This document shows positions 7,463 to 63,000 of a stretch of DNA of 64,000 nucleotides, piece after piece. This DNA is from Coriaria nepalensis (taxonomy: Eukaryota; Streptophyta; Magnoliopsida; Cucurbitales; Coriariaceae): the NCBI GenBank assembly GCA_027186245.1, contig CP114495.1, forward strand, positions 8,920,501 to 8,984,500, in the 5' to 3' direction. A program made the translations under genes and the position numbers. The number at the start of each line of letters is the position of its first letter. Within the stretch, counting starts at the first letter, position 1. The notes below the pieces were generated by a model. That model was given only the letters and a program-made list of their open reading frames with translations. It was not told the DNA's origin and ran no database searches.

Positions 7463-7816
7463 CTACTTACAAGGTTTAGTATTATCTTTTTTTTCACCGA
7501 TTGATCCGATGCCGAACACCGTTGATTTGTTCACTGCCGTCCTAGAACCCCCACGACTTACACCTTCTGATGATCCAGTACCTCTTCCTATGTTGACATT
7601 TTCAAAGTTAATGTTGTTTTCTGTGCCGGAAAAGGATAGTATGCTACCTTCACCAATTGCTCCCATTCCAAACACCGTTGATTTCTTCCCAAACCCATCG
7701 TGATCATCGTTGTTTATGCTGACTGCTCCAAACCCAATCTTGTTAGTCATGTCGGTAAGTTTAATGTTTGCTCCACCAATTCCTCCTATTCCGAAAACCG
7801 TGTTTTTCTCAGACAT
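7463..7816 (-). CDS. Small protein made only of GIG-motif repeats
   Basis: 117 residues starting at MSEKN (ATG 7816). I do not recognise the family, and almost the whole protein is the cluster's repeat. Copy 1 covers residues 6-31 (TVFGIGGIG ... KIGFGAV), copy 2 residues 46-74 (TVFGMGAIG ... NINFENV), and a truncated copy 3 residues 98-112 (TVFGIGSIG). There is no signal peptide, membrane segment or other domain. A leader intron is likely: donor CTCAG-gtaatca near 7958 and acceptor ttttcttcag near 7831, with no usable ATG in the upstream exon, so I start at the first ATG after the acceptor. Gly, Ser and Asn content is high and the alternating hydrophobic residues suggest short beta strands. 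A decayed copy lies at 19361-19495. Function unknown. Confidence 0.7.
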   Translation of the reverse strand: MSEKNTVFGIGGIGGANIKLTDMTNKIGFGAVSINNDDHDGFGKKSTVFGMGAIGEGSILSFSGTENNINFENVNIGRGTGSSEGVSRGGSRTAVNKSTVFGIGSIGEKKDNTKPCK

Positions 7817-8044
7817 CCTCGTCCTTCTGAAGAAAATTACACTATTTTTCTTTTTCAGAAAAAAAGTATTATTTAGCAAGAGATTCAGTTCATAAAATTT
7901 TGAAGTTGATTAAGAGATATAATCATAAGCAGCTAATGAGGAATAATTTGTGATTACCTGAGTTTTGCTGCCAATAATATTCAACTTCAAACGACGAGCT
8001 AACTCATTTACTTATACTTTCAACGAAATACTCATAACTATGCC

Positions 8045-8310
8045 TAGAGGTGTCAAAACGGGCTACCCGGCTTGGACCGACCCAGCCCGATCTATTTAGA
8101 ATTTTTTACTATTTAGCGTTGGGCTGAGCTAAGCTTGAAAAAAAAAATGAGCTGGATTGGACTGTGTCCATTTTCAAAATAATATCTGAATCCGGTTTGG
8201 AAAGCTTTTTGGATTTATCTTGAGTCTATCTGAGCTTAAAATAGGTCGGGTTCTACCAAGCCTTATCGGACCTAAAATGGGTCGAGTTCTACCGGGCCGG
8301 CCCTTTTCTA
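8045..8310. mobile_element. Possible hAT-like end sequence
   Basis: The stretch starts aggtgtcaaaacgggc and repeats gggtcg / cccggc words (gggtcgagttctaccgggcc), as in the subterminal regions of plant hAT elements. No transposase and no matched far end were found. Tentative. Confidence 0.3.
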
Positions 8311-8518
8311 AAAAAAATATTCATAATAAATTACTATTAAAGTAAATGATATTATTTGAGATTCTGAATTCTGAAAATAATCCAATTAATAAGAGATTTA
8401 AAGAATAATTTAAATAAAATTATTAAAATTATTAAATTATAATCATCAAAATTTGTAAAGATTAAGAAATATAAATCTAATTTTATAATTTTTAAAGAAT
8501 CAAAATCTAGTAAAAAAT

Positions 8519-8970
8519 TTATTACGTCTAATTTAGTCTTCTTATAGACATAGACACCCTGTCCAGTTATAATTAATTATTAGAATTCACATTGACCGAT
8601 TCGTGAAAGGTTGGAAACGATAACATATAATTATTTGATTAGATAAATTAATGCATTAATTGGAAGTAGAATCTTTCAAGATTCGACCTACTTGTCTCTA
8701 GTTGATTATGGACAGAGAGTAGAAAGTCAACGTAAGAGTTAAAGATAAAGGTAAAATACATGGGAATCAATTGTATCGCAAGTTGGCCATGAACATAATT
8801 TCTTAATTGTTCGATGTGATGGAATGGATTAAAAAAAGACATGGATAAGTTATTCAACTACAAATCTTTACAATAATGTTTTACCTCAATTATTACTAAG
8901 TTTATATTTGTTTACTCATTCAAACCTGGTTGATGTTATGTCCGGATTCGTTTCAATTAATACTCTCTTT
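8519..8970. repeat. Dispersed repeat, copy A (partner at 25187-25660)
   Basis: The stretch from tattacgtctaattta to tttcaattaata matches 25187-25660 in the same orientation with small indels. Both copies contain a short minus-strand frame with the shared peptide VDFLLSVHNQ, but neither looks like a complete gene. The nature of the element is unknown. Confidence 0.75.
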
Positions 8971-9737
8971 TTGTTTATTTTTATTTTTATTTTTATTTTT
9001 TAAATTTTTGGGTGGGTTGGGTGTTTCGTTTTTCTTTGCCTTTGCACTTGTGGTATCTTTTTACTACAAAATTTACTATATGTCAAAATGAAATGATATA
9101 TATTTTTGGCCTATCAAGTATCGAAATACATGTATTGAGAAAATGTTAAAGTGGATAATGGAATGGAAATGAGGTTTGTTATAGATTCTGTCGTAAACCT
9201 TTTATTTTATATTTTTTAAAAATTATTATTTTACTTATAAGATAATTTTATCTATCTTTATTATTATTTAACCACTACCTAGTGGTTCGAGCCGAATTTC
9301 ATAGGCATATGCCTAGATATCAAATATTAAGCTCTTTTTTATAAATATTAATTGGGATAGGGATTGAGATCAATTTTAAAATTGATCACATTACTGGTCA
9401 TATTATAGGTCTTTATAGAGAGATCGAAACCAATTCTAGTTCCAATACTTTATCTATACCTAAAATTGGTAATGGAATTGAGTTTGATATTAGGATTCCT
9501 ATCGGGACCGAGAATTTTGCCGACCTCTATTACATTCTTGATGCAGGTGTTCTCTTATAGAAGGTGGCTGGTTATACTTTCATCCCATATCGTGAGAAAA
9601 CGGTAAAGTCGGGTGAATTTACACATTTCGGATTTTGAGGCACAACCCAAGACAGTCCCATATTTATGTTGGGTGAATTTACAAGGGTTATCCACGAATT
9701 ACAAGTAGTGCTGTTAGTGGGGCGAATTGACGGGGCT
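8971..9737. other. Noncoding stretch
   Basis: AT-rich, with a pentanucleotide run of tttta around 8970-9000. I see no gene or clear element. Confidence 0.5.
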
Positions 9738-10138
9738 GCTAGGGGAGCTTCATGAGATTATGCCCGAGGAGTTACCATGTGATTACCCCCTATACGGGAT
9801 ATACAACATGAGATCAATCTAATTCTGGGTTCTAGCCTTTTGAATTTGCCCCATTATTGTATGAGTCCGACGGAGCACGATGAGCTCCAACGGCAACTAC
9901 AACAAATTCTCGATGAAGGCTTTACCTGTGAGAGCCTATGTCCGTGTGTTGTACCCGCATTGTTAATGCCAAAAAAGATGGTAGTTGGAGAACGTGTCTT
10001 GATAGTCGAGCCATTAACAAGATTACGGTTAAATATCGGTTCCATATACCCCACCTTAATGATATGCTAGATCTTGTGAGAAGGGCGACAATTTTTTCGA
10101 AGATATTCTTGAAAAGCAGAGGAGTACACTATTAATAT
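9738..10138 (+). mobile_element. Ty3/gypsy reverse transcriptase remnant
   Basis: The plus strand encodes LLGELHEIMPEELP, then [35 protein letters not shown], the PALLMPKK block and, after a frameshift near 9975, [20 protein letters not shown] and IPHLNDMLD. These are consecutive blocks of the N-terminal part of gypsy RT. The catalytic YxDD region is absent. A short dead scrap. Confidence 0.88.
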
Positions 10139-10561
10139 ACTTAAAATTTGAGAATATTTAATACAGCGTTGAAATTAGAGATTGTTTTCTGTTCCACTCT
10201 TTGCGATATAATGTAAAACCTCACTTCAAACATTCGCGAACTGAATCTGTATGGCTAATTGTAGAATTTGGAGAGTTTTACTTCTAAATTGTTCATCCAA
10301 TTAGAATGAGGATTATGCATTTTAAATTTATGGTAATTACATAATACAACCACTGCCAATGTTTTTTTACTTGCTTTACCCGTATATACTCTTGCAATAC
10401 TCTACAAACTCTCTTACACAAGTCATACTTCTTACAACTTAGATACTAACACAAGCTAAACTTGCTTTTGAAGTGAAAATAAAAACAAAGATGATAATCT
10501 GATTCAACAAAATACTTTAATAAAATATTATACAAAAATATCATCATTCAATAGGTAGAGC

Positions 10562-12909: not shown

Positions 12910-12929
12910 GATCAAAGGAACTACGTACA

Positions 12930-15600: not shown

Positions 15601-17276
15601 TCACCGCCCTCTATGATCGTAACTTTGACGTTTTTTTCCGAAATTGAAGTTATTGTTTAGAATCGTCCCAAAATTTAAATTATTCTCTGCGTTGTTCAGA
15701 TTAACTTCACCCCCATCAATTGCAGCAATTCCTTGAACCATAGAAGGCCCTGCTTTTGGTATAGAAGCTTGATTGTTCCGATCTTTGGCACCCGAAATTC
15801 CACCGGATCGTGTTGTTTTTGGAGCTTCATTGTTGCTTATTCCTTTGCCTTTCAACTGCGTTGCCAAATTACTTCCGTCGTCGCTTGTTGAAGAACCTTC
15901 ATTAAACAATTAAAAAATTTGCCGACTTAATAGATAGAATACTTGTAAGTTTTTTCAATATCAATAGTATAAGGAAAAAATAAATTAAACATGTATGGTT
16001 TTGTTCATAAAATCACATTTACCTAAATTAATCTTCTCAGTGGCCTTCCCTCCATTTCTACGGCAGATTTCCTTAAAAATTCTGGAAATTGGACAGTTAC
16101 CTGAATCAGTCTTCCCTCCTCCATTTCTACGGTAGATTTCATTTACAAATCTGAAAATTGCACATTTCTGAAACTTAATATTAGAATCCCAAGCAGAAGT
16201 TTCTGTGAAAGAAAGCGACTCGTAGCAAAATTTTCTGCATCCTGCATTGAAACTTGCCTTGGCCCACTGTATGGATCTGTTTTGTTGCCAACAAGCATGA
16301 TTGGAATATCTGGACCATGAATAAGCCTCATTGCACTGATGTCATGACTTTTTAAATTTTCAAAGCTAATCCTGTTAGCAACATCGTAAACGTAAAGAAT
16401 GCCGGAAACTCCCTCAGCAGGATTCCCTACGTTATACGTAATTCTTGAATCCAATACGGACGGCTTGTACCGACCTTGGCCAGCAACGTCACAAATTTGA
16501 GCCAAGATGACCTTCCCATCCACAACCATGCTCCCAGTAGATAACTCATAGCCATAGGTGGGAATATAATTGAGGTTGAATTCGTTCTTCATAAATCTAG
16601 AAACCAAATTAGACTTACCCACATGGGGAGATCCAAGAACAAGCACTTTAAAGAGGTAAGCATAGTCAGTTAAGTTACCAGCACCAGCTCTCTTGCCTTT
16701 GTATTTTATAGACGGCATTACATCACCGACGTGAGTACGGATCCCACGAGCTATCGTGTTATCAATCCGGGCTACATAGATTCTTTTGAAAAAGATGCCA
16801 TACAAACTATCCGGGACTTTCAGATATGCATCATAGATAGCAGAAGTTTCCCAGTAGTTGACACGGACGCTTGTCGTGAAAGCTTTTAGTTCATCGGTCA
16901 AAACCTCCCTTTTCCGATAATCGGATATGCAAAGATATATTTTGTTACCAACAAGCACGATTTGAAAGTAAGGATCATTTTGATGATATTTTTTCAAGAT
17001 GGGTACCAATAACTTGACTTGTTCGTAGGTATAACGTCGAGTGATATCATAGACAAGAAATGCACCCACTGCCCCTTTCATGTAGTGGTGATAGGTTGGT
17101 CCGCTAGCAACCGCTGGCATTTCTATAGCTTTGATGAGTAACCAGCGGTTGTACTTGCAATGCATGTCCTAATAGAACTTGCTGTTCGGGAATCTAGCGT
17201 CGAACGTTGACTTGCCCACGCCCTTCTCTCCCATCACCAGCACGGTGAAGCCGCAGTCAAGATCCTCAAATTCCAT
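15601..17276 (-). pseudogene. Double Rab-like GTPase with GIG-type tail, disabled copy
   Basis: Close relative of the intact gene at 26966-28643, in the same orientation with similar flanks. The ATG at 17276 opens a first G domain with the P-loop GEKGVGKST, but codon 36 is TAG (17169-17171), where the paralogue has Arg. After it, both GTPase-like domains are readable (AFLVYDITRR; second P-loop GSPHVGKS; DVAGQGRYK; GNKTD). Near 16213 a deletion (four bases relative to the paralogue) throws the frame so that the ETSA block is misread. The exon's end is duplicated: two similar segments, each ending in a donor (16102-16180 and 16024-16101). The last exon (15896-15601) encodes the tail VQGIAAIDGGEVN and NNLNFGTI, a variant GIG motif, then NNNFNFG. 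Phases of the donor and the acceptor (aatgaag) match once the deletion is allowed for. Confidence 0.85.
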
Positions 17277-20451: not shown

Positions 20452-21213
20452 ATGGCGTCATGTTTAGCATCAGTCGGGTATTAAAAGCACTTTCCTTTCC
20501 TTGATCTTATTTTTTCTACATATGTCTTCTTCTTTTTCCTATGAAATAATCGGCTATTTGATTTGATTATTAGCTCCAATCTATTGGTATCAGCTATTGG
20601 TACCTTCTGCACTCAAGCATCAGAGCATGTCAAGTACCATCGGAACCTTGAAAAACATTGGAACATTTTGAATACAAGAGTTAAGGAACTAGATGCGAGG
20701 AAGATCGATGTGGCTGGAAAAATTCAATTAGCGATTGAACGAGGAAACTCGGTAAGAGAAGAAGCAAAAATTTGGGTGGAGAAAGTTGAAGAAATAGATG
20801 AGAAAGCAAAGGTTAATGAAACTGATGTCAAGAAAACAAAATGGTTGAAGAGGGCATGGATGGGAAGACGTGTATGTGAAGAAATAAAAGAAGTGGAACG
20901 TGTTTATGAAGCTGGTAAGCGGTTTAGTGAGGGGCCAGTAGTTAATGATGTCGAGGGCAATGGATCTGGAAATCAAGAAACTGGGGGAAATGAAGAATGT
21001 TTTGTTGCTGGTGTGGGAGGAATTGGCGAGACGACTATCGAAGAAAAGGATTCTACTACTGACATTCGATTTGATGAGTACGAAGATTCAAGAACGAATG
21101 TTGAGAGCTCGAACTCAAAAACAGTTCTTGGTGTTGGTGGAATTGGGAAGACAAACATAAAGACCAAAAATTCAAAAACAACGGTGACATTCGGAAAAAT
21201 CATCCGAAAATGA
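20452..21213 (+). CDS. NLR-like coiled coil with two GIG motifs
   Basis: The only plus-strand member with an intact frame. Exon 1 is 20452-20477 (MASCLASVG), intron 20478-20573 (gtatta to ttag), exon 2 20574-21213; phases match (2) and the product is 221 residues. Residues 1-130 resemble the coiled-coil domain of RPS2/RPS5-type plant NLRs: SEHVKYHRNLEKHW, alternating helices with REEAKIWVEKVEEID (the xVxxWL-like helix), then the basic RRVCEEIKEVERVYEAGKRF, which in NLRs precedes the NB-ARC P-loop. Here two GIG motifs follow instead, at about 152-177 (VAGVGGIGETTI) and 191-219 (VLGVGGIGKTNI ... VTFGKI), and the protein ends. The second copy still reads GGIGKT like a P-loop, but no Walker B or other NB-ARC element exists. 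Soluble, no signal peptide. Probably an NLR-derived truncated protein; function unknown. Confidence 0.78.
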
Positions 21214-21419
21214 ACAAGTTTTGAAGTGCAAATTCTTATGTTTTTCGTTGTTTTTTTTTTATATATTTTTTATAGAAGAGTTGATCATTATAGCTTTGCA
21301 CCTTTGATAATGTTCATTTTAACTCTTACATAGAAGAGTTAGATTATATGTTGAAAAAAAAGATTGTAAGGGCTTAGACGTTGAAATAATTATATTGTGA
21401 AAATCGATAGAAGCCCACC

Positions 21420-26965: not shown

Positions 26966-28643
26966 TTAATCTGAATCTCCATTGTCCTTCATGATCACGA
27001 CAGCTTTAACGTTTTTTCCGAAATTGAAGTTATTGTTTAGAATCCTCCCAAAATTTAAATTATTCTCTGCGTTGTTCATGTTAACTTCGCCTCCATCAAT
27101 TGCAGCAATTCCTTGAACTATAGAAGGCCCTGCCTTTGCTATAGAAGCTTGATCATTCCGATATTTTGCACCCGAAATTCCAGCCGGTTGTGTTGTTTCT
27201 GGGGCTTCATTGTTGCTAATTCTTATGCCTTCGAACTGCGTTGCCAAATTATTTCCATCTTCGCTAGTTGAAGAAGCTTCATTAAACAAAAAGTTTGCCA
27301 CACTTAATAGAACTTCTATAATTTTCACTCAATATCAGTAGAAATTGTATGAGGAAAAAATATAATAATCATAATAACAAATAAACAAATACGGTTTTGT
27401 TCATAAAAACACATATACCTAAATCAATCTTCTCGTTGGCCTTCTCTATATTTAGACGGTAAATTTCCATGAAGAAACTGAAAATTGCACATTCCTGAAA
27501 CTTAATAATAGGATCCCAAGCAGAAGTTTCCATGAAATAAAGGGACTTCTTTTCTGCAAAATCTTCGGCGTACTCCATTGGAACTTGCCTTGGCCCACAG
27601 AATGGATCTGACTGATTGCCAACAAGCAGGATCGGAATATGTGGACCATGAAGACGCCTCATTTCCCTGAAGCCAACTTTCTTTACAGCTTCGAAGGAAA
27701 AAATATTACCGACACTATACACGCAAAGAATTCCCGAAACTCCTTCGTACAGATTTCCTATGTCGTATCCAGTACTTGAAGCCAATCTGGAGGGCTTGTA
27801 CCGACCTTGGCCAGCAAGGTCACAAATCTGAGCCAAGATGGTCTTCCCATCCAGAACCAAGCTCCCGATTGATAATTCATAGCCATAAGTGGGAATATAA
27901 CTGAGGTGGAATACGTTATTCATAAATCTAGAAACCAAATTAGACTTACCCACACAGGGAGGTCCAAGAACAAGCACCTTAAAGAGGTAATCATAGTGAG
28001 TTATATTACCGGCACCAGCTTTCTCTCCTTCATATCGTATAGACGGCATTATAGCTCCGACGTGTGTACGGATCCCTCTAGCCACCGTGTTAACAATCCG
28101 AGTTATATAGATTCGTTCAAAAAAGAAGGAATACACACTATCCAAATTTGTGCTTTTGATTGCAGAAGTTTCCCTGCAGTACACATATTGGAACCTTGCC
28201 GCGAAATCTTTTAGATTGTCTGTCGAAATCTCCTTCTTCCGATAATCCAATATATCAAGAGAAAGAATAGAGTCAAGGTTTTTACTGCAAAGATCTTTTT
28301 TGTTACCAACAAGCATGATCTGAAAGTAAGGATCATTTCGATGATATTGCCTCAAGATGGGTACCAATAACTTGACTTGTTCGTAGGTAAAACGTTTAGT
28401 GACATCGTAGACAAGAATTGCAGCCACCGCTCCTTTGTAGAGACTGTAGAGTGGTCCATAAATCGCATCTATGGTTCCATCTGGCATTTGATGTATTTCC
28501 TTAACTTCGATGCATAGCGAGCAGTTGTACTTCGAAAGCATGTAGCGATAGAACTTGCTCAGTGAGAATCTGTCGCCCAACGTTGACTTACCCACGCCCC
28601 TCTCTCCCATCACCAGCACAGTGAAGGCGCAGTCAAGGTCCAT
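26966..28643 (-). CDS. Tandem double Rab-like GTPase with GIG-type tail exon
   Basis: 511 residues in two exons: 28643-27419 and 27276-26966, intron 142 bp (gtatatg to aatgaag), phase 1 on both sides. Domain 1 starts at once with the P-loop GERGVGKS (13-20) but has no DxxGQ switch II; it keeps NKKD (114-117) and ETSA (158-161). Domain 2 has GPPCVGKS (227-234), DLAGQGRYK (275-283, Gln kept), NQSD instead of NKxD (343-346) and ETSA (372-375). The sequence between the domains contains GIRTHVGAIMPSIRYEG, shared with the disabled copy. Exon 2 adds a Ser/Asn/Gly-rich linker and VQGIAAIDGGEVN ... NNLNFGRI, the GIG-type motif, then NNNFNFG. No prenylation Cys. Without splicing, the first frame would read on for 15 residues. 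Paralogue of 15601-17276; this copy appears functional. Confidence 0.82.
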
Positions 28644-31652: not shown

Positions 31653-32391
31653 TCATGAAGAGTGATTACTTAGGAAAGCTGTTCGAACGGCAGAAAGAAT
31701 AAGTTCTCTATACTCCCCGGCCTGTGACGGCGGGAGTGGCGCAGAAGAATCTTGACCTAAATAAACATTAACAGTAAATGATAGCGAGCCAACATTAACA
31801 GAGATATCAGTTTCATTCATCTGGATATGCGTGTTACCAATTCCACCCACTCCAATAACTGTGTTAGAACTGGCTCCTTCCGGTAATGTTGTCGACTCAT
31901 GTGATGTTGAAATTTCACCAATTGACATCGTTCCCGCCCCAGACGACATTATTATTACATTTTCTGGACTGCTTTGATCGTTACTAGTACTAGAGCTACT
32001 TTGATCAGTCCCTTCAGGATTTTCTTTCACTATCTTAAATTTCATTCCAGTTGCCTCATCAAGTACCCACCGCATCGCTCTTGCGCCATCTAAATCCAAT
32101 ACTTTCAATATTTCCGCACCCTGTTCCGATTTACCTGCTGCCAAAGTCATACCCACGGTAGGAGCCCATTCCCTCGTGTCCGTGTAACCAAGTGCTGCCA
32201 AACCTTCTGGAAGGTAACCGTGCCTTGCCAGGGTTTTCAGAAGAATCTGAGAGGGGGTTACATAAAGAAACCAAAAGGAAGGAAGGAAATAGGTAAGTAG
32301 TTTGAAAGAATATTAAGGTATCAATTGTCCTAGTAAATATGGAACAGTTCAATCAGTAAGACGGAGAACATACTTTCTGAAGAGAGAACAT
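31653..32391 (-). CDS. GIG-motif protein, subfamily with conserved AVRxAFL tail
   Basis: 203 residues from two exons: exon 1 32391-32374 (MFSLQK) and exon 2 32246-31653, intron 32373-32247 (gtatgtt to ctctcag), phase 0. Residues 1-80 form a small domain (KILLKTLARHGYLPEGLAALGY, then MRWVLDEATGMKFKIVKE) shared with the genes at 36468 and 42175 but unknown to me. A Ser-rich linker leads to the GIG motif at about 135-160 (VIGVGGIGNTHIQM ... VNVGSL), then an extra beta-like segment and a Pro-rich turn. A conserved C-terminal helix ends the protein (YRELILSAVRTAFL). The splice model is supported by matching homology across the junction. No targeting signal. Confidence 0.8.
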
Positions 32392-36356: not shown

Positions 36357-37560
36357 CTTTAACACAATATCATAATCCCTAAACTTGAAGATTAAAAGAA
36401 TTGAATAATCTGTTTGAATTAGGCATTCTTTAATCTAATAACATCTTACCCTTTTGTTTCACCCTTTTTAAGCAAATTGATTGTGAAGAAAAGCAGCTCG
36501 AACAGCCGCTAGAACGAGTTCTTTGTGCTCCTCAGTCTCTACTGGCAGCAACGGCATCGGGTCCGACAGATTTGAATAAATGTTTGCAGTGAATGAAACA
36601 GGACCAACATTAACCGTAATGCCCGTTTCACTCATATGTATATGGGTTGAACCAATCCCACCTACTCCCACAACCGTGTTAGAAGAAATCTCTTGTGCCC
36701 GAAAAATTGACTCATGTGAGGTCGATATTGCACCAATTGATGATGCTGATGATGTTGTTGTTATGGGAAAAGATACTCGGACATTTCCCAGACCCTCATA
36801 ATTTGATGAGTGTTCTTTATCACTATCATTTCCTATGACATTTGATTTCACTATCTTTACCCACAATCCTGATAATCCGTCACATACCCATGTTGCCAAT
36901 GACTTGTCATCTTCACTACCCTCATTTTTTACCACCGTTAAACTCCGTTCCGATTGGATTTTATTTGAGTCACATTTCATAAGAGTACTCATCCCAGATA
37001 CAAGTAAACGTCCCACCAAAATTGCTCCGACCCGGGCTAATTCTGTGTACATGATGATCAATGCACACTTGATAGGGTTCTCCCAGAAGGTGTATGGTCG
37101 GACGATAATAACAATTCTCAAACCTCCCAAAAGGTAATATATTAAACTAATCAACTTCACAATAAAACGCCTAAGCAGAAATCAGGGAGTGGTTCATTCA
37201 TGAAGGTGCAAAGACATAACTAGGGCATTACTTCATTCAGAAAAGAAATGGAAGAACGGAAAAAAATGAAAGGATGATCAGGAAATGCTAATTTTGAATC
37301 TTTGATGTATGCCATAGTTAAAACTTATATAGTGTATGCCATGTGACAAGTTGTAATAGAGAGAGGAAATGACTAAAAGGAAAACCGCGTTATTAATTAG
37401 GATTGTTCACCTTCTTAGTAGCTTCTATTGGTCATTATTGATGACGAAGGACCTGAGGTTTTGAATTAGCAAAAGTCAATGGTCATGAACGTGTAAGCAA
37501 TGCCGATTGGGCATAATAAACTAAGCGTTGAGTCTGGATATATATTTTACAATACTACTT
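36284..37560. repeat. Duplicated gene segment, copy A (partner 42019-43290)
   Basis: Coding sequence, about 110 bp of 3' flank and about 400 bp of 5' flank align in the same orientation with the segment 5.7 kb to the right, with small indels. A further scrap of the 5' flank (caccttcttagcagcttct) lies at about 45056. Confidence 0.9.
36468..37052 (-). CDS. GIG-motif protein, AVRxAFL-tail subfamily, copy A
   Basis: 194 residues from the first in-frame ATG (37052). The frame is open further upstream without an ATG and contains acceptor-like sites (cttctgggag before AACCCTATC), so a short first exon as in the 31653 gene is probable but was not located. Shared parts are LATWVCDGLSGLWVKIVK (compare MRWVLDEATGMKFKIVKE), a Ser-rich linker, the motif VVGVGGIGSTHIHM ... 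VNVGPV, and the tail HKELVLAAVRAAFL. It lies in a duplicated segment with 42175-42765. Function unknown; the Gly-rich core has Ser in place of a P-loop Lys. Confidence 0.72.
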   Translation of the reverse strand: MYTELARVGAILVGRLLVSGMSTLMKCDSNKIQSERSLTVVKNEGSEDDKSLATWVCDGLSGLWVKIVKSNVIGNDSDKEHSSNYEGLGNVRVSFPITTTSSASSIGAISTSHESIFRAQEISSNTVVGVGGIGSTHIHMSETGITVNVGPVSFTANIYSNLSDPMPLLPVETEEHKELVLAAVRAAFLHNQFA

Positions 37561-40247: not shown

Positions 40248-40249
40248 AG

Positions 40250-42018: not shown

Positions 42019-43290
42019 CCCATGTATTCTTTATTTATTCACAATTCATATACAACTAAAGCTCCTTAACACAATATCATAATCCCTAAACTTGAAGATT
42101 AAAAGAATTGAATAATCTGTTTGAATTAGGCATGCCTTAATCTAATAACATCTTACCCTTTGGTTTCACCCTTTTTAAGCAGTTTGATTGTGAAGAAAAG
42201 CAGCTCGAACAGCTGCTAGAACGAGTTCTCTGTGCTCCCCAGTCTCTAATGGCGGCAATGGCATCGGGTCCGACTGATTTAAATAAATGTTTGCAGTGAA
42301 TGAAACAGGACCAACATTAACCGTAATGCCCGTTTCACTCATTTGTATATGGGTTGAACCAATCCCGCCTACTCCCACAACCGTGTTAGAACAAATCCCT
42401 TGTGCCTGAAAAATTGACTCATGTGAGGCCGATATTGCACCAATTGATGATGCTGATGATGTTGTTGTTGTGGGAAAAGATACTCGGACATTTCCCAGAC
42501 CCTCATGATTTGATGAGTGTTCTTTATCACTATCATTTCCTATGAGATTTGATTTCACTATCTTTACCCACAATCCTGATAATCCGTCACGTGCCCATGT
42601 TGCCAATGACTTCTCATCTTCACTACCCTCATTTTCGACCACCGTGAAACTCTGTTCCAATTGGATTTGATTTGAGTGACATCTTATAAGAGCACTTATC
42701 CCTTGTACAAGAAAACGTGCCGCCAAAATTCCCCGGGCTAATTCTCCTCCGTGCATGATGATCATCAATGCACGCTTGATAGGGTTCTCCCAGAAGGTGT
42801 ATGGTCGGAAGATAATAACAATTCTGAAACCTCCCAAAAGGTAATTAATTAAACTAATCAATTTCAGAATAAAACGCCTAAGCAGAAATCAGGGAGTGGT
42901 TCATTCATGAAGGTGCAAATACATGTCTAGGACATCACTTCATTCAGAAAAGAAATGGAAGAAGGAAAAAAAATTGAAAGGATGATCAGGAAATGCTAAT
43001 TTTGAATCTCTGACGTATGTCATAGTTAAAACTTATATAGTGTATGCCATGTGACAAGTTGTAATAGAGAGAGGAAATGACTAAAAGGAAAACCGCGTTA
43101 TTAATCAGGATTGTTCACCTTCTTAGTAGCTTCTAATGGTCAATATTGATGACTAAGGACCTGAGGTTATGAATTAGCAGGAGTCAATGGTCATGAACGT
43201 GTAAGCAATGCCAATTGGGCATAAGAAATTAAGCCGTTGAGTCTGGATATATATATTTTACAGTAAGTAATACGTGTCTTCTAGATATGG
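42019..43290. repeat. Duplicated gene segment, copy B (partner 36284-37560)
   Basis: See copy A. The 5' flanks share agtcaatggtcatgaacgtg (about 37474 and 43182), which contains an inverted W-box core. Confidence 0.9.
42175..42765 (-). CDS. GIG-motif protein, AVRxAFL-tail subfamily, copy B
   Basis: 196 residues from the ATG at 42765; as in copy A an upstream exon is likely. Compared with copy A it has HGGELARGILAARFL, closer to RHGYLPEGLAALGY of the 31653 gene, then LATWARDGLSGLWVKIVK, the motif VVGVGGIGSTHIQM ... VNVGPV and the tail HRELVLAAVRAAFL. Copies A and B are clearly recent duplicates. Both frames are open with mainly conservative differences, which suggests that both are still used. 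Confidence 0.74.
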   Translation of the reverse strand: MIIMHGGELARGILAARFLVQGISALIRCHSNQIQLEQSFTVVENEGSEDEKSLATWARDGLSGLWVKIVKSNLIGNDSDKEHSSNHEGLGNVRVSFPTTTTSSASSIGAISASHESIFQAQGICSNTVVGVGGIGSTHIQMSETGITVNVGPVSFTANIYLNQSDPMPLPPLETGEHRELVLAAVRAAFLHNQTA

Positions 43291-47073: not shown

Positions 47074-48180
47074 TTAAGTACCACTGATATTCCCAAATGT
47101 GATAGTTGTAGTTGAATTAGTGTTCTGGACGGTTGACCGACCGATTCCTCCCATCCCAAACAGTATGGTCTTGCTCCCCCCACCAGATTCTCCTTTCTCT
47201 TCTTTCTTCCCTTTTCTTGCAGCTGGTTTATTACTACTACTTGGGACCTTTGATTTGCTTGGAGGTACTGTCTCAACATCATTCTGTTCCTCCTCTTCTT
47301 CTTCATCAACTTGCTGCTTCTGTTTTGAAGGTGAGGGTATTTTCTCCTTCTTCAGCTTCTTTTCCGGTGGAAGCTCGGTTTTCGTTGCATCGTTTTTGTC
47401 TTTGGCATTCAGCTCCTCGCGGTCTCTTTTGTAGCTTTTTGTGTTTTCATGCGATTTGGGAGCGTCGATCTCATCAGAGGATCCCGAGGTCACATAGCTT
47501 CATTAAAAAAGTAGAATATGAATCATTAACATATTGACGAAGACCCAAAAACATTATTAAATTATTAATCAGAACAACCATATAACGAACATTGTTTAGG
47601 TCTCATTCGCAATTCAAGTGAGTCATATTGCAACTCTAGTGCTCTTAAGGCCAGTTTGCTTTCAGCGTTTGAAGTGCTTAGTTTAACTCTAATTTTGTAT
47701 GTTCTTGTTGAAACTGTTAGATAAATATGTTGCATCAATTTAAACCCAATAATAATTCAATAATGTTTTGATGTTGTTATCTTATTGATTGGAATTACAA
47801 CTTCTCTTACTACTATCCCTTTTAAGTACCCGAGGAAACTTGCCGTTCAGACAAACAAGAAACTAAGATTAAACCGTCTCATAACATCAATTTTAACTGC
47901 AAGAGGGTAAACCCAGATCCAGTTCGACAACATACAAATTAAAGGTTATAATTATAACATAAATAACAAAAATATTAATTAACTATTAAGTCTATATCTA
48001 CGAGTACTTAATTCAGCATATTTTTCTTACTTAATTTTCCATTTTTACTGATTATAATTATAAATTTAAAGAAAAATAAATTCTGGTAAAAGGAAATAGA
48101 ACTTTATTATACCTGGAATCACTCATTTCTTCATCTTCTTCCTCTTCACTGTAATTGTAAGCTCTGTCGAGTTTTCCCAT
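47074..48180 (-). CDS. Acidic/lysine-rich protein with C-terminal GIG motif, copy A
   Basis: 163 residues from two exons: exon 1 48180-48113 (MGKLDRAYNYSEEEEDEEMSDS) and exon 2 47497-47074; intron gtataa to aatgaag, phase 2, which the paralogue at 61660-63000 supports exactly. The protein begins with an acidic tract, continues with charged, disordered sequence (PPEKKLKKEK, EEEEEEQNDVE, and KPAARKGKKEEKG, possibly a nuclear localisation signal) and ends with one clear GIG motif (ILFGMGGIGRSTV ... ITFGNI, residues 133-160). I know no family for it. The charged part would keep a sticky C-terminal motif soluble; that is inference. Confidence 0.82.
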
Positions 48181-49768: not shown

Positions 49769-50256
49769 TTAAGCTTTGATTGTACTACCAAAACTAACAA
49801 TTGATTGTGAATTTGTGTTCACCACTTTTGACTTACCAATCCCACCAATCCCAAAAACTGTTGAACTTTCCCCGCCACCATTGTTTTTACATCTAATCGT
49901 CATACTTCGTTCTTCATGGATCTCATTATTACTTTTCAGAACCGCAGTAGCAGAATCTTCCATTGTTATGTTCGCATCTCCAACTCCATTTTGCAGTACT
50001 GTACTTTCCGGTTCCGTCTTTCTATCTCTTTCAATACTTGAATAATGTCCATCTCCATTCGCGGTCCAGAAACAGCTGATCAGAGATCCATAACAGAATA
50101 AATAAGTAAAACATCATGTTGAGATTTGGGTGGAAATTAAGGACATGAGTACTTGCATGCATGTTCTTTTTATTACAAAATACTGCATGAATTTTCATCA
50201 TTAAGCATAAGAAGAAAGAGAGAATGAAGTTACCATAATCGTGAAATGCATCCCAT
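49769..50256 (-). CDS. Small GIG protein with predicted myristoylation/palmitoylation start
   Basis: 109 residues: exon 1 50256-50234 (MGCISRL) and exon 2 50075-49769, intron gtaact to gatcag, phase 2. The start MGC, with Ser at position 5 and a further Cys pair at residues 8-9, fits N-myristoylation and palmitoylation, hence the membrane face. The middle is polar and includes a degenerate first motif (TVLQNGVGDANITM); residues 79-106 are a canonical GIG motif (TVFGIGGIGKSKVVNTNSQ, then VSFGS). No other domain. The upstream relic at 48.6 kb supports the exon borders. An ATG inside exon 2 (49963) would give a 64-residue form without the lipid signal. Possible role as a membrane-anchored partner of other GIG proteins; inference. 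Confidence 0.78.
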
Positions 50257-51892: not shown

Positions 51893-53476
51893 TCATTTTC
51901 GGATATTACGGAATGTAATTTTGCTAATGCAATCTTCATGGTTTACGTGCGTCCTGCCGATTCCGCCTATACCAAAAACTGTATTTGATACCCAATTCTC
52001 TCCCTTCTTTCTAGTCTCATTAGATTTCCCTTTTTGAATCACGCCAAATCTGATTACAGAATCAGAGTTTGCATTTGTTACTTTTGCGTCCCCAATTCCA
52101 CCTATCCCATATACATTATTCACTTCATTTGAACCCGTTTTGCTTCGAGCATCTCCATTCTCACCGACTATTAATCCGTCTGGAAACTTACCTTTCTGAT
52201 AAAGCTCATCGAACTCTTCTATTTTCCGAACCACTTTCTTCCCAAAACTTGCCCGTTTGCAGCATTTTATTCCCGAAACTGTAGCTTCAAGTTCCTCTTT
52301 GTCCTTGTTAATTTCTTCCACGTTAACTAACCAGCTCTTAACTTCGTTCTTTACTTTCTTTTCTGGTTGATGTTCGATGATCAACAACACATCTTGCTTT
52401 CTGCTATCCAACTCATCAGATTTTCTTCTTAATTTGTTCATGTGCTTTTCAAGGTTCCAAAAGTAGTCGATCCGATTTCCGACAACCGTGCAGATGGGAG
52501 CTCCAACAACATCCACAATTTTGGTGCTGCATAAAATTCGAGAAAACCATGAACCTGTAGGACATGAACATGGAAAGAACTAATAACTTGAAAAAACTAG
52601 ATATGTGAAATCAGATTAACAGAGAAAGAATGCATAGCTTATAGAGAGCAACTTAATATCTGTCATTTTTCTGTCATAAGAACATAGAAGAACAGAAAAG
52701 GGAAATATACCACTTAAGTCTCTTATCAATCCAAAAAAATTTGTTTTCCACCCAAATGTTTTCGGACTCCACAAAGATGAAGAAATCTATTATCCATCTC
52801 CCATATTTTTCATACTAGTGATTTTGCTACCATTAAAGCTGTCTTCAGCCCTTCTTAAAGTATTATGAAGATGACCCGACCCATAAATATTCAGCCAAGC
52901 AAATTACGAAGGCCCAAGACAATTGGAAGAGTACATGTTGCTTTGATAGCAATGGGCGAAACTACATGTAGGCGCATAACCGCATGTTGCTGTAATAGAA
53001 GATAAGCTTAAGCAATGAAATAATTATCTTCTCAATTCTTAGTTTTTCTCTCTAATCGTTCTCCCTAAAATTCTTCGAGCTCGGCCGGCTCGAAAATGGC
53101 TCACCCCCCTTAACATAAAGTTCTAACCAGCCTCAAACCTCAAAACCAATCCTACGCTAAGTTGATTCAAGGCATTAATCTCAGGACTTATCAGAAGAAA
53201 AGTGATGCACTATCCCTTTTTGAAGAACGTTTGACCATAAATCTCAACCCACAGGTCTCACCTTACATCAATCATCATATCAGGTTATATATATGTTTGT
53301 GATTGATCGGGTTTATGTAGATCTTGAGTTATAGAGAAATTTTGGGCCTAAAATAGAATATCATGCTCACAGAATAAATAAATAAAAAATAAACATATAA
53401 GCATGAAACGGAAGAAGAGGAGGGGTAAGGGCAGAAATTACCATGCGGCAGCAAGTCCAGCTGCGAGACATTCCAT
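51893..53476 (-). CDS. NLR-like coiled coil with two GIG motifs
   Basis: 222 residues. Exon 1 53476-53442 (MECLAAGLAAA), intron 915 bp (gtaattt to tatgcag), exon 2 52526-51893, phase 2. MEC at the start and YFWNLEKHMNKLRRKSDELD, VKSWLVNVEEIN and ASFGKKVVRKIEEFDELYQKGKF are typical of the CC domain of RPS2/RPS5-class NLRs, in the right order. Where such receptors continue to the P-loop, this protein has GIG motif 1 at 149-175 (VYGIGGIGDAKVTNANSDS, then IRFGVI) and motif 2 at 193-220 (TVFGIGGIGRTHV ... ITFRNI), and stops. Asp or Arg stands at the P-loop Lys position, so no nucleotide binding is expected. The intron holds unrelated plus-strand sequence near 53080-53280 that may be a transposon scrap. 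Damaged copies lie at 51.6 and 63.5 kb. Confidence 0.82.
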
Positions 53477-55674: not shown

Positions 55675-58220
55675 TCAGTGTAGTGCTCCTACGCTTCTTC
55701 GTCTATAGAGCAAAAACAAGAGTGTTAAACATCCTATAGTCACCCATGTAAAGGCCTCCTTTGCTCTTTTGTAATTGCAAGCTCTTGAAAGTTGTGGCAG
55801 CTCAACTTTGCTATCTCGATCCTGCGCCTTCCTTGACCTCTTTTTATGAGCTCCGTGTTTGCGAATTTGACCCTGAATGTTATAGGTAATATGTCCATAG
55901 TTTATTTTGTTTTTTGTGTCTTTCATTTTGATTTGGCCGGAATCAGACACACCAAATCCATAAACTACGTCAGAAGTACCTTTTATTGCTAGAGTCTGCT
56001 CATTGTAGTTTTCTAGATCCGAAACTTCATTGACCGTTGATGAAGATAATTTTCTCCGGCTAATGACCAAACTTTTGGTTTTACTTGTTATATGGCTATG
56101 CTTTTCATGTTTCTTGACAATCTTGTCTAGCTGTTTCATTTCTACTTCTTTCCTTTCCAATTCTTTTACCTGCCGATCCAGCGATGCATAAGAAATATTA
56201 GCATTTTTGCGCTTTTCAATTCGTTCCACCTGAAACCATTGTACCTTCTTGCTAACTGCTTTCATCGACTCCCAGTATGAATTTCCATTGCTGTCCACTT
56301 CTCCAAGTTGAAATATTTTACAGAAATGGCAAGATGTGGGTTGGTGAAGGCAGGCTTGTGAAGCCATAGGTGAATCCTCAGTCCATGTGATGTGTTCCCA
56401 ATACATGTAATACGCTATGTCCTCTGCCGGCCTTAAATTTGTCTTTGAATTTGTCAATCGGATAGTATTAAGAAAGCTACATAACAGATTGTGAAGTAGT
56501 GATCATTAGTTAGATTTACCAAAAACTATAATGATGCTCTTGACCCATATAAACCAGCAACAAATTATAATGGAAAAAAATCACGTATCCTTCAATCATA
56601 CATATAACACTGCCAACTTACCTGTGCTTGAGTTCACCTTTTATCTGCTCCATCTTGAATGTTGTACTTAAACCGACTCCATCATTTCCATGAACTGCAG
56701 AAGAAGTCCCTCTGTTTTCCAGACCGTTCTGATCATTGTAGTTGATTAAGTCTGAAATTTCACTAATTGTATCATCACTAGGGCTACACTTCTCGCAAAT
56801 TTCCAAAGTACTCAAATCATTGGGATTTTCAAAGGCTGAAGTTTCTTTTACGGAAAAGTTCCTACTACTCAATTCAGCACTTTGATCATTAGGATTAACT
56901 TTCTGGACTGAAATTTCATCCTCTGATTTTGTTTGAAACGGCAACAATTCTCCATCCTCCGGTAAGTTCAAACCTGGCTCTTCCTCTGTTGATCAAATAG
57001 TTAAATAGGGAGCTAAACAATATTGAAAACAAAAATAATAATCAATTAAATTCCATTGTTAATTAAAACATACTACCAGGAAAATGATCATCTATTACGC
57101 GCCGGTCTGCTCTCAAAGAACAAGAAGGCAAGGAGATCTCGGGTAAAGTTGAAATCGCATTGAAGTCACGATCCAGATCCATATCTCCCACACGGTCATC
57201 ATAAGCCCTTACCAACCCCATGTACGTTAGAACTTTCTCACCATGGAAGAAGTCACTATAAAGTCGAAACAATTCTTCTAGAATCCCTTCAATTTGCTCG
57301 TCTGTGAACTCTTGTGGATTTACAGTGATAATAAGTGTGGTCAGCTCTGATCTATTGAGTGCTCCATCATCATTTGCGTCGAATTGCTGAAAGATCAACT
57401 TCACCTTCTCCAAACTTTCAATCTCTCTAGTCGAACAAGTAGTAGTATTTGTGCTGTGAATTTCAGATTGCTGCACAATCTGGTCCTTCTGTACTAAATT
57501 GTGCAAAGTAGTATCGTTGTTCCTCCGAGCAACGATATCCCTTCCTCTATCTTCAATAGATATAGTCCACTTCTTTCCCACGGATTTCTGGTAGATCCTA
57601 GCAATCACCTGGAAGAACGCCCTTGACACATTCGTTGAATCTAGAGCAGAAGTTTCTATAAAATAGAGTGACTCCCTCTCAGCAATGGATTTACCTTCCT
57701 CGGAAGATACCTCCCTGAGGTTTATATCATCTATCATGTTACCAACAAGCATGACTACAATGATGGGGTCAGTATAATCTCTCAACTCCCTTAACCACCT
57801 CTCGACACTTTCAAAAGTGGAACGCTTGTTGACATTATACACGATCAACGCCCCCTTTGCCCCTTGGTAGTAAGCATTAGCAATGACCCGGTAACTGTCT
57901 TGGCCAGCTGTGTCCCAAATCTGGGCCTTGATCACCTCGGCATCAAACTCAAAGAATTTGCTGGCAAACTCCGCTCCAATAGTAGGCCTGTAATTCTCCT
58001 TGAACCCGTGACTAGTAAATCTGGATAACAAGCTTGACTTGCCCACACCAGAGTCACCGATTAAAACCACCTTAAATGAGTAGTCATAATCATCCCCACC
58101 TTTGTACTCGGTTGTTTTGTTAAGATAAGCCTCGTCCTTATTGCTTTCCGCACTCCGGCCAGTGACAGATGTTTTAAGTCTTTTGAAAACTAAAGGCAAT
58201 CTAGCCTTAGTATTATCCAT
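55675..58220 (-). CDS. Chimera: Rab-like GTPase, EF-hand segment, CHFCK domain, GIG-like motifs, membrane tail
   Basis: Three exons with matching phases: 58220-57077, 56985-56622 and 56476-55675 (introns 91 and 145 bp; gtagta to caacag, and gtaagt to atgtag), giving 769 residues. Residues 50-215 form one Rab-like domain: GDSGVGKS (55-62), WDTAGQ (102-107), NMID for NKxD (161-164), ETSA (189-192). Residues 265-355 resemble the N-terminal EF-hand part of a plant TPR protein of the At1g05150 type ([20 protein letters not shown], later [12 protein letters not shown]); the loop 281-292 has all calcium ligands. Exon 2 encodes a linker with SDLINYN and a weak motif (AVHGNDGVG). Exon 3 starts with the DIAYY/CHFCK domain, then a Lys/Glu coiled coil, a second SDLENYN and the motif [15 protein letters not shown]. 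It ends with a basic stretch and one membrane helix (about [17 protein letters not shown]), a tail-anchor pattern. Exons could instead belong to two genes, but the phases fit one. Confidence 0.75.
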
Positions 58221-59589: not shown

Positions 59590-60379
59590 TTGTACTATAT
59601 TGTGCTTACGAGTATGGTTGTTCCTCATAGCAACGATATCCCTTGCTACATCTTCAAAAGTTGTAATCGGCTTCTTGCCCACGGTCTTCAGATAGATCAT
59701 AATAATCACCTAGGTGAATGCCTCGTACACCCTTACCGATTCCGGAAGAGAAATCTATATGAAATTGAGTGACTCCGTCTCAGCAAAGGATTTCCCTTCC
59801 TCAAAAGATACCGCCCTGAGGTTTATATCATCTCTCATGTTACCAACAAACATCATTATAATGTTGGGAACATGCAGCATGCCTTCTCAAATCCCTTAAC
59901 CTCAACTTGACATTTTCAAAAGTGGAACGCTTAGTGACATCATACACCATTAATGCCCCATCGGCCCCTCGTTTGTAAGTTTTAGCAATGAAAGGGAACC
60001 TGTCTTGGTCAGTTGTGTTATGAATATGTGCCTTGATCACCTTGCCATCCGAAATGAAGTATCTAATGATGTAGTCATATCCACTAACCCAGATGTGATT
60101 CTTGGTGCACCCGCGACTAGCAAATCTGACGATCAAGTTAGACTTTCCCAAACCAGAGTCACCGAATAAAACTACCTTGAACAAATAGTCATAACCGTCT
60201 CCAGCTTCGTACTCGGCTATTTCCTTAATATCAGCCAAGTAGTAATAATCATCTCCAGATTTGTACTCGGCTATTTTCTTGATATCAGCCTCATCGTCGT
60301 TGCTTTCCACACTCCGGCCAGTGATAGATTTTTTAAGTCTTTTGAAAGTTAAAAGTAATCTAGCCTTAGTAGTAGCCAT
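59590..60379 (-). pseudogene. Single Rab-like gene, decayed duplicate of the chimera's first exon
   Basis: The ATG at 60379 reads MATTKARLLLTFKRLKKSI, matching [19 protein letters not shown] of the chimera. It contains a small internal duplication (DDYYYLADIKEIAEYEAGDGYDY). The P-loop GDSGLGKS is kept, but WDTAGQ is HNTTDQ. The frame shifts after RDLRRHAACS (about 59890), and further down GNMRDDINLR, EEGKSFAE and a TAG in place of the ETSA Glu are readable. The EF-hand part and later exons are missing. Dead copy. Confidence 0.85.
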
Positions 60380-60705
60380 AAAAAGGTCACCCCAACAAAG
60401 AACGGAATCAAATTCCAAAAACAACTCGCAGATTAGAAAGAAAATCTACCAATCATCATCAGAATTCAGAGCAAACGCTCAAGGCCAATCTCAAAATTCA
60501 AGAGAGTTCAAGAACAAAACCTGAAAAATCCTATACTGATCATAAGAACCTTCAGCTCTTCTTGTATTCAAACCACAATAACAGCTGATTGATCATTACC
60601 TCTTCCTCTAGCTGTCGCTATTACTCTTGATCATTAACCCGAATATATCGAAGTCATTATTTTTCTTAATAACTTCGTTAGTTTGGCCGTCATGTTGATT
60701 AATCA
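60380..60705. other. Leader and flank of the Rab pseudogene
   Basis: Shares caattctcttgaattt-type leader words with 39247-39420 and 58225-58380 (reverse strand). No gene. Confidence 0.4.
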
Positions 60706-60730
60706 AACAGATGGTCCGGCCTAAACGTTC

Positions 60731-61320
60731 TGTTTCCTCCCCTTCTATTGATGTTTCTTGGTCCCCTCCTGAGGAAGGCTGGGTGAAAATCAATTGTGAT
60801 GCTGCGTGGGATGGCAAGGATGGTGCTATGGGGACTGGGATGGTGGCGAGGAATTCGTCTGGTGGAGTGGTGGCTGGGTGGTCTAAGTATGGGGTGGCTC
60901 CGTCTGCTGACGTGGCTGAATCGTGGGCTTTGCTGGAAGGCTGTGAGCTGGCGGTGAGGAAGTGGCTTTAAAAAGTGATCTTCGAAGGGGATTCCTCCTC
61001 TGTTTATGATGGAAAAGCTGTTAGTACGGGGTGGGTTAATAACTGGATGGTTAAAGATGTTCTTTCAAAGTTTGATGAGAAAAGTGTGTACCTTGATCAG
61101 TTGAAGATTGTACTGGTCCGTCGATCAGTAAACTGTGCTGCCGATTGGGTAGCGTCTAGAATTAAGCGTGAGAAGTGCCCTGATCATGGGTGCGTTGAGT
61201 TTCCCCCTTGTCATTTGCGTACGATTCTGGAAAGATGCTTGTGGGCTTTCTGGTGTTGCCCTGAGTTCTTCTGGGAAGGATCGGGCTGTTGGTTGTTGGA
61301 GAAGTTTGAGGCGAAAGGTA
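60731..61320 (+). mobile_element. RNase H-like domain fragment, LINE-type
   Basis: The plus strand reads WVKINCDAAWDGKDG, then VVAGWSKYG, ADVAESWALLEGCELAV, a TAA at 60969-60971, and on in the same frame FEGDSSSVYDG and VLVRRSVNCAADWVA. These are the blocks of the plant RVT_3 RNase H domain, with catalytic Asp, Glu and Asp present. It is found at the end of L1-type LINEs and in small stand-alone genes; the stop codon makes this one a relic. Confidence 0.8.
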
Positions 61321-61659
61321 TTGGGTGATTTTGTGTGAGGGTTTGCATGTGGCTTCCTTGTTGTTTGCTTGCTTTCTGATCGGATGTGTTACTGTTTGGT
61401 TTGTGGGTGGCTCTTGCTTTCTGGTGGGTGGTGTTGCTATCTGGTTGTTTGGTGGACGTTTTCTTCTGAAGTTCTCTCATGGCGTTTGGATTTTTTTTTT
61501 TCACTATATAATTGAAATCAAATTCATCTCGTAAAACATGAAATAAAAATAAAAATTCTTCACTCAAACAAAGTGTTGTGACAAATCAAATTCAACGTTC
61601 GCAGATGATAATAATCTCAAAGAGTCATACAATTAAATATAAACTTCCTGAATAAAAAG

Positions 61660-63000
61660 TTAAGTACCACTGATACTTCCAAATGTGATATTTGTAGTTG
61701 ACTTCGTGTTCTTGATGGTTGACCGACCAATTCCTCCAATCCCAAACATTATGGTCTTGTTCCCCCCATCAGATCTTCCTTTATCTTCTTTCTTCCCTTT
61801 TCTTGCAGCTAGTTTATTACTACTACTTGGGACCCTTGATTTGTTCGGAGGAGGTACAGGTACAGTCTCAACATCATTTTGTTCCTCCCCGTCTTCTTCA
61901 TCAACTTGCTTCTGTTTTTCAGGTGAGGGTGTTTTCTCCTTCTTCAGCTTCTTTCCCGGTGGAAGCTCGGTTTTCGTTGCATCATCTTTGTCTCCGGCAT
62001 TCAGCTCCTCACGGCCTCTTCTGTAGTTTTTCGTGTTTTCGTGTGATTTTGGAGCGTCAATCTCATCAGAGGATCCCGACGTCACGTAGCTTCATTAAAA
62101 AAGTTGAAGATGAATCATTAACATATTAACGAAGATCAAAAACATCATTAAATTATTAATCAGAACAACTATATAACAACCATTGTTTAGGCATCATTCC
62201 AAGCTGCTTCGTTAATGATTGATTATTTCAACAACTACATAACAACTATATATGTTCTTATCCAGTTTTTGGATCTATTAGATTCCAATTTCAAACGTAA
62301 TATCTAGTTTAGTATATATGAAAACAAAAAATTTCACTCTACGGAAGAAAACAAAAGATTTTGAAAATATTAAGAATGAAATTGAGCCGTTTAAAAGTCT
62401 AAAGATAAAAATGAAGAAACCATAAAAGCTTAGGACGAAAATGATAATTTAGCTAAAAGTCAATAATCAAGGTAGTGGACTTGGAGCTTCTAATTCCAAG
62501 TTTGCAGTAATGATTATCAGTGAAAGAACCCACAAAACTAAAATCAAACCTTTGTTAATTGCATAAGTTTAATTTTAAGTACTCATTTAACTGACAAAAA
62601 TAAAAACAAAATCAAAAACAATTTAATTGAAACAGGTTAAACCCAGATCCAGATCGACAACATACTTTTAAGTATATGGTTATAACTTTAACATAAATAA
62701 CACAAAATATTAAAGAACTATAAACACTATATCTATGAGATATTTTGTGGATGGATCTGTACAATAATACAGGATCAACTGCCTTTCAAATTTCAGCGTA
62801 TTTTTCTCACTTAATTTTCCATTTTTATTGATTATAATTATAAATTTTAAAGGAAATCTTAATCTGGTAAAACGAAATTGAAGTTAATTATACCTCGATT
62901 CGCTTAGTTCTTCCTCTTCTTCCTCCTCTTCCTCCTCTTCCTCCTCCTCTTCTTCTTCTTCTTCTTCGCTGCAATTGTAAGCTTTGTCGAGTTTTCCCAT
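61660..63000 (-). CDS. Acidic/lysine-rich protein with C-terminal GIG motif, copy B
   Basis: 178 residues from exon 1 63000-62894 and exon 2 62089-61660; intron gtataatt to aatgaag, phase 2. Nearly the same as copy A at 47074-48180, but the exon-1 Glu tract is much longer (about 20 acidic residues, encoded by a GAA/GAG microsatellite) than in copy A. The charged middle (KKLKKEKTPSPEKQKQVDEE) and ARKGKKEDKG are kept. The GIG motif reads IMFGIGGIGRSTI ... ITFGSI (148-175). The duplicated unit includes intron and promoter. Confidence 0.82.
62894..63000. repeat. GAA/GAG coding microsatellite
   Basis: On the plus strand tcctcctcttcttcttcttc and similar runs (about 62908-62968) encode the Glu tract of acidic gene B. 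The matching exon of gene A is 39 bases shorter, a multiple of three, so both frames stay open. Confidence 0.85.

Follow-up and report, generated by a model that had tools for sequence, protein, structure and literature searches.

A short glycine-rich motif near the C-termini of NLR-type coiled-coil proteins and other partners in Coriaria nepalensis: a tentative case for a transferable assembly module

Why should proteins with unrelated N-termini, encoded close together in a plant genome, carry the same short glycine-rich stretch near their C-termini? The question is raised by a 64,000-nucleotide stretch of contig C15 (8,920,501-8,984,500) in the 316-Mb, 20-contig assembly of Coriaria nepalensis, hereafter the window, which contains small GTPase genes, a Ser/Thr phosphatase, coiled-coil (CC) domains of the type found in nucleotide-binding leucine-rich repeat receptors (NLRs) and pieces of retrotransposons, and in which repeats and duplications are abundant. 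A first-pass annotation had noted a "GIG motif" at the ends of nine proteins there, with five diverged forms, and had proposed a common interaction code for one physically clustered system. We find that the motif is real, that it extends beyond the window and that it may also be present on an NLR; we tentatively favour reading it as a transferable module for homotypic assembly in an NLR-related system, and would give this slightly less than an even chance.

A six-frame search of the window for the pattern G[IVM]GGIG, which defines a strict copy, returned 11 copies against none in 100 dinucleotide shuffles. All nine places listed by the first-pass annotation have such a copy, and the proteins at 20.5 and 51.9 kb have two. 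A hidden Markov model (HMM) built on ten of the 11 scores them at 27.6-53.2 bits, against a best score of 10.6 bits in 40 shuffled windows. The module is 28 columns long, with glycines and fixed hydrophobic columns; a carrier has one, two or three copies of it, close to its C-terminus. In a table of 23 copies (two copies of locus L030 with an extra residue and later-found copies being left out), column 5 is always glycine and columns 3, 6, 14, 23 and 25 always hydrophobic, columns 5-10 having been partly selected by the search pattern itself. The most variable columns are 11, 13, 15, 20 and 27, and the placing of variable polar columns between hydrophobic ones suggests a pattern as in beta strands. 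Leave-one-family-out scans of six families, in which matrices on the whole motif or on columns 11-28 only were used to rank about 43,394 sequence windows, extend this: with the part after GGIG alone (columns 11-28), held-out copies rank between 1 and 12 in five of the six families (3 at 7.8 kb; 1 and 12 at 20.5 kb; 3 and 6 at 52 kb; 3 at 49.8 kb; 1 and 2 at 47/61 kb). The 31-42 kb family is not recovered by these columns (ranks 69-239) and ranks 1-3 with the whole motif. The GIG motif is therefore real and conserved past its glycine content, with many different partners, as had been claimed. AGGRESCAN values place hot spots on both halves of most copies, and in the charged proteins at 47.1 and 61.7 kb there are no hot spots besides these two halves. 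In Pfam the motif matches no family at that family's cut-off (weak matches only, such as DUF3602, E value 0.031, for one piece), and PADLOC gave no match up to E 1 for eight proteins.

The diverged forms fared unevenly. Those at 15.7, 27.1 and 55.9 kb are without GGIG and fit the 28-column register gaplessly; they are among the top six sequence windows in all six whole-motif scans, and a profile of the three aligns with one of seven strict copies over 27 columns (probability 91%). Their scores with the strict HMM, 4.2-10.6 bits, do not exceed what shuffled sequence gives. The form at 22.4 kb is weak (top six in two of six scans, 11.7-12.2 bits), and that at 12.4 kb finds no support, being absent from the match lists of both the strict HMM and the leave-one-family-out scans. 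The statement that the motif ends its proteins holds in so far as it lies near their C-termini, but further residues follow at 31.7, 36.5, 42.2 and 55.7 kb: 42 of them at 42.2 kb, a similar number at 31.7 and 36.5 kb, and about 70, including a hydrophobic stretch, at 55.7 kb. A shared splice-acceptor word, TTTTTAATGAAG, was also considered and set aside, its frequency not being above chance.

The motif is not confined to one physical cluster, as had been supposed, since copies lie on at least five of the 20 contigs (C1, C6, C9, C14 and C15). By itself, the GIGGIG DNA pattern is weak evidence, with 32 places genome-wide against 18 for a reversed-pattern control; five of the 32 are in the window, one on C17 was left unread, and 25 loci were read outside the window (eight search loci, plus 17 stretches covering 18 more places). 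Five of these loci carry the motif (L010, L011, L013, L016 and L017, with nine copies at 16.1-37.1 bits), four carry NB-ARC P-loops (L005, L014, L015 and L021, 9.1-13.2 bits in the same scan) and 16 have nothing at 9 bits; fifteen neighbouring stretches yielded further copies in L030 only. A genome search with the 51.9 kb protein returned at least 15 places. Four are CC proteins in which both motifs are clear (two in the window and two on C14), and three others on C15 (L045, L046 and L051) have two diverged candidate motifs, the best of which is unequalled in 3,000 shuffles for L045 and L051 and weak for L046 (149 of 3,000 as good). A CC domain with two motifs or candidates is thus kept in seven of the 15 places, one of them weak. 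The others comprise two places with a single motif (C6 and C9), an NLR on C1, two fragments of the broken copy at 63 kb and three fusions of a CC domain to monodehydroascorbate reductase (MDHAR), in whose frames no motif was seen. CC-plus-motif genes and candidates extend over about 0.5 Mb of C15 (8.62-9.11 Mb), so that the cluster exceeds the window.

The NLR on C1 (L047) is the key result. A TIR frame (E 3.1e-36) lies upstream of a 418-residue frame in which an NB-ARC domain (E 3.3e-31) with a normal P-loop is followed by a CC domain of the same family as those of the window and then, near the C-terminal end of the frame, by the motif VNGIGGVGNVDINNTGNPNLTFGNF. With a one-residue deletion allowed in the turn, this tail scores 24.5 bits, a value reached by none of 20,000 shuffles (best 22.4). 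The same short motif, as a gapped copy here, would thus stand both on an NB-ARC frame and on separate CC proteins; if the call is accepted, the motif exists on an NLR, apart from the P-loop. Two of the single-motif CC genes also lie beside NB-ARC frames. On C9 the CC-plus-motif frame (L013 5854-6384) is about 0.6 kb upstream of a same-strand NB-ARC frame (Pfam E 2.7e-40), with an 864-residue NB-ARC frame with leucine-rich repeats further on, and on C6 a relative (L054) lies just upstream of a frame read from its sequence as NB-ARC. In both pairs it is the CC gene in which the motif was seen.

The CC domain of plant NLR type is the commonest motif partner found. Its profile matches 9h2l, an NB-ARC protein of known structure (E 8.8e-7), and the C9 relative matches Rx_N (E 0.0041, below the curated cut-off); Pfam gave no match to RPW8 in the CC proteins up to E 1. 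Between the two motifs lie 17 residues in the 51.9 kb protein and 12 in the 20.5 kb one. Two CC proteins on C14 are 72 and 75% identical to the 51.9 kb protein, the three aligning over 207 residues with no stop or indel, and AlphaFold2 predicts the CC part to be helical. Separately, a CC domain of this family and a whole MDHAR share one open 592-residue frame in L030 (864-2639, minus strand; C14, about 9.065-9.067 Mb; Pfam Pyr_redox_2 E 2e-56, MDHAR3-like_C E 6.5e-36), with a broken copy in the window (1238-2533, minus strand) and another at C15 8.906 Mb (L052).

Other carriers are listed with the CC proteins in Table 1. The three-copy protein at 7.5 kb has a similar gene in L030 on C14, and L016, also on C14, has a strict motif and a second half that resembles, by eye, the 55.7 kb protein. 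Some of the partners reported by the first-pass annotation depend on gene models: the "lipidated start" at 49.8 kb exists only on the two-exon model, the protein having a second, diverged copy of the motif from about 50008 besides its strict copy at 49781-49864, and the motifs attributed to double-Rab proteins lie in separate downstream frames that would be joined to them by putative splices. The double-Rab frame at 16146-17165 contains an in-frame stop close to its start and may not be intact.

Table 1. Motif carriers and related features, with positions counted from the first letter of the window.
Feature	Position	Strand	Remarks
Direct repeat, 99.7% identical	1-1185 and 6194-7378		first copy cut by window edge
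117-aa protein, nearly all motif	7466..7816	-	copies 7721-7804, ~7595-7681, cut-short third from 7525
Tail exon with diverged motif 15661-15744	15604..15906	-	downstream of double-Rab frame; putative splice
CC domain and two motifs (20998-21081, 21118-21201)	20581..21210	+	
Tail exon with diverged motif 27041-27124	26969..27289	-	downstream of double-Rab frame 27372-28643; putative splice
Motif 31782-31865, then AVRTAFL-type tail	31656..32201	-	
Motif 36597-36680, then AVRAAFL tail	36471..37160	-	near-duplicate of 42.2 kb gene
Motif 42304-42387, then AVRAAFL tail	42178..42861	-	
Charged protein, motif 47086-47169 at end	47077..47496	-	
Protein with MGCISRLCCF... start	49769..50256	-	two-exon model 50234-50256 + 49769-50075, GT-AG
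CC domain and two motifs (52037-52120, 51902-51985)	51896..52528	-	
CHFCK-type protein, diverged motif 55888-55971	55678..56457	-	hydrophobic C-terminal segment
Charged protein, motif 61672-61755 at end	61663..62088	-	duplicate of 47.1 kb
Broken CC copy	63375..63774	-	similarity ends at first motif

Three observations on the GTPases stand apart from the motif. Two Ras-family GTPase domains stand in tandem in frames at 16.1-17.2, 22.3-23.8 and 27.4-28.6 kb; none of 80 database matches to the 22.3 kb frame covers more than 44% of it, and the only motif pattern among the 80 is a GTPase P-loop in P0034. One protein of Helianthus (P0001) has a Rab-like domain fused to MATH-type domains (PF00917), an unusual fusion for a plant Rab. 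In the window, one frame (57066-58220, minus strand) encodes a Rab-type GTPase followed by an EF-hand-like stretch below the Pfam cut-off.

How might such a module work? As a homotypic assembly module, the motif would act first on the NLR, whose oligomerisation would cluster its motifs and let them fold as stacked beta-arches. The clustered motifs would then recruit those of CC proteins by like-with-like beta stacking, and perhaps also lipidated, GTPase and membrane-anchored partners, so that CC domains would gather at membranes and a defence response would be set off or adjusted, in the way known for fungal NLRs and HET-S-type proteins. The common interaction code first proposed would fit this layout. 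A fuller version, in which plants have NLR-linked amyloid-type signalling, with a C-terminal beta-arch motif of a TIR-NB-ARC protein, derived from a P-loop strand, templating the same motif on CC cell-death proteins and on GTPase, lipidated and membrane-anchored adaptors, seems to us rather unlikely.

Amyloid signalling motifs associated with fungal NLRs include HET-s/NWD2 and PP, sigma and the bacterial BASS motifs being further examples of the kind; partner proteins in such systems have a membrane-targeting helical bundle of HeLo, MLKL or BELL type. Truncated proteins of NLR type with only a CC domain are a known class in plants. The Coriaria proteins resemble the latter in having a CC domain without NB-ARC, and differ from them in a C-terminal motif that is often repeated and is common to non-NLR proteins. 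Among fungal systems, as the available portion of PMC5485727 describes them, NLRs and helical-bundle proteins share a short amyloid motif, and HET-s has two 21-residue repeats joined by a 15-residue loop. The likeness lies in a short module that an NLR would share with proteins, putatively of helical-bundle type, that carry it at the C-terminus, and perhaps in the adjacency of the genes (PMC5485727 and PMC12881547, both in their accessible parts), and, with HET-S, in two motif copies with a spacer (PMC5485727, same portion). The differences are that the Coriaria motif has many additional partner types, matches no curated family and occurs in a plant. The nearest plant precedent that we found is given by the RPW8/HR proteins of Arabidopsis, which, in the accessible part of PMC6684095, are CC-type, NLR-linked proteins with short C-terminal repeats that the authors compare with HET-S. 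Their repeats, however, are of 21 or 14 residues, predicted to be helical and without spacer (PMC6684095, same part), whereas those of Coriaria are glycine-rich and beta-type looking, differ in sequence and have spacers of 12 and 17 residues.

Divergence between copies bears on whether the motif is kept by selection. Where C14 (9.065-9.098 Mb) matches the window and its right flank, the genes stand in the same order, except that window 40.3-41.4 and 57.7 kb match out of order. A neighbouring gene common to C14 and C15 has a synonymous divergence (dS) of 0.233 and a nonsynonymous divergence (dN) of 0.066, against a dS of 1.2-1.5 with its C9 relative. The corresponding values are dS 0.129 and dN 0.107 for the CC part of the 51.9 kb protein versus L011, and dS 0.137 and dN 0.266 for the MGC protein of 49.8 kb, outside its motif, versus L010. 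The CC and MGC genes thus change faster for their dS, although loss of constraint would look alike; fast change is usual for immune genes. For three pairs pooled, pN/pS is 0.51 in the motif against 1.08 outside it (Fisher p 0.033, nonsynonymous changes), and a residue-level test of all five pairs gives p 0.039. The lower motif rate is seen individually in pairs 36/42, 31/42 and 27/15, and in a third C14 comparison (L010b) the motif is again slower than the rest.

A number of observations weigh against a homotypic assembly module. Like-with-like beta assembly is itself something that we infer. Pairs 47/61 and CC show no difference between motif and outside, and against two C14 relatives the motif changes at about the rate of the rest, in the 7.5 kb protein and in one of two comparisons for the 49.8 kb one. 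Taken together, the codon data speak for selection on the motif weakly and not consistently. In the AlphaFold2 models pLDDT stays below 50 over all of the CC protein's motif part and in 115 of the 117 residues of the three-copy 7.5 kb protein, and Foldseek found no match in the PDB at E 0.001 for the CC model, the only one searched. In L047 the splice from TIR to NB-ARC is putative and the gene was read in part; its motif, with a turn one residue shorter, was not reported by an HMM of 21 copies at 8 bits or above, so that the call rests on the gapped score and the adjoining CC domain. The same HMM did not report the candidates of L045, L046 and L051 at that threshold. The layout also differs from the fungal one, in which the motif is N-terminal on the NLR rather than C-terminal as in L047. 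Relatives are lacking too: in a database of 5.8 billion proteins that includes some plants, the CC protein had no match at E 0.01 among 99 candidates, and a six-row motif alignment none at E 1 among 7,980 candidates scored, a level that a 28-residue motif can hardly reach. Finally, the motif profile matches that of the NB-ARC P-loop over columns 3-15 only, with a probability of 94%.

Further searches were likewise negative within their reach. None was confirmed for the six-row alignment in bacterial and archaeal contigs or for the CC alignment in viral contigs, and the matches in other species that the first-pass annotation had expected did not appear; no relatives were thus found outside the C. 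nepalensis genome, by searches that are weak for a 28-residue plant motif. Pfam holds HET-s and RHIM families, and ten motif pieces matched no curated amyloid motif family in it up to E 10, HMMER filters dropping most matches above about 0.1. A literature search, judged by the titles listed, gave no described plant case of this motif, "GIGGIG" leading by title to plant resistance genes and to many adenovirus papers; one paper reportedly deals with amyloid-like fibrils of an Arabidopsis natriuretic peptide (PMC8747288).

The alternative that survives best is that the motif is a docking peptide, all carriers binding one folded hub by beta-augmentation or in a pocket without mutual stacking. Many unrelated partners and a position near the C-terminus suit a linear docking motif, single-copy carriers exist (on C6 and C9, and at 47.1 and 61.7 kb), and AlphaFold2 predicts no confident self-folding; against this, 28 conserved columns exceed the usual length of a linear motif, and tandem copies separated by a spacer are seen repeatedly. 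We regard docking as possible, if doubtful.

Less probable is that the motif is a P-loop left over from truncated CC-NB-ARC genes, spread by duplication and fusion and without present function. The first-pass annotation had named a profile hit to nothing but a known low-complexity or P-loop domain as an outcome that would undo its claim, and the match of the first 13 columns to the NB-ARC P-loop comes near it, even with no Pfam family at cut-off. In CC-type NLRs the CC domain is followed by the P-loop, so that the motif may plausibly descend from a P-loop strand; a weak Pfam match to NB-ARC (E 0.73) exists for one motif piece of ten, and the motif rate is not lower in several pairs. The lysine of the P-loop, however, is present in only three of 23 motif copies versus all six listed NB-ARC P-loops, the second half of the motif has no P-loop counterpart in the profile match, and L047 has a normal P-loop and the motif in one frame. 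P-loops and motifs also score apart in the genome scan given above (four P-loops against nine motif copies). Identity with a P-loop or NB-ARC domain was therefore rejected, as it fits the first 13 columns only and the lysine is not kept, and descent leaves unexplained why the second half is conserved and how the motif came to other partners.

It is quite improbable that the motif is a membrane-active peptide of glycine-zipper type rather than a protein-protein module: it has a short hydrophobic glycine-spaced stretch, and some carriers have a lipid-type start or a hydrophobic tail, but that stretch is some eight residues long, and polar and hydrophobic residues alternate in the conserved second half. 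Chance, low complexity or insertion of a mobile element into many genes can be virtually discounted, for although the motif is glycine-rich and the window full of repeats and duplications, this is largely contradicted by the empty shuffles and the conservation past glycine, and self-BLAST (matches above 150 bases) does not connect the motif regions of one family with those of another.

A 2021 review raised the question of whether plants, too, have amyloid signalling (PMC7889193, as far as its text was accessible), and a 2022 paper, in its accessible part, describes the NLR-associated form as apparently limited to fungi and bacteria (PMC9815663). Read as a homotypic assembly module, the Coriaria motif system would be a concrete candidate from a plant, comprising a receptor, CC partners and adaptors with a single motif. 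Even if it were a docking code, a module that a TIR-NB-ARC protein had in common with many small proteins, CC-type and Rab-linked, would add a new layer of wiring to plant immunity.

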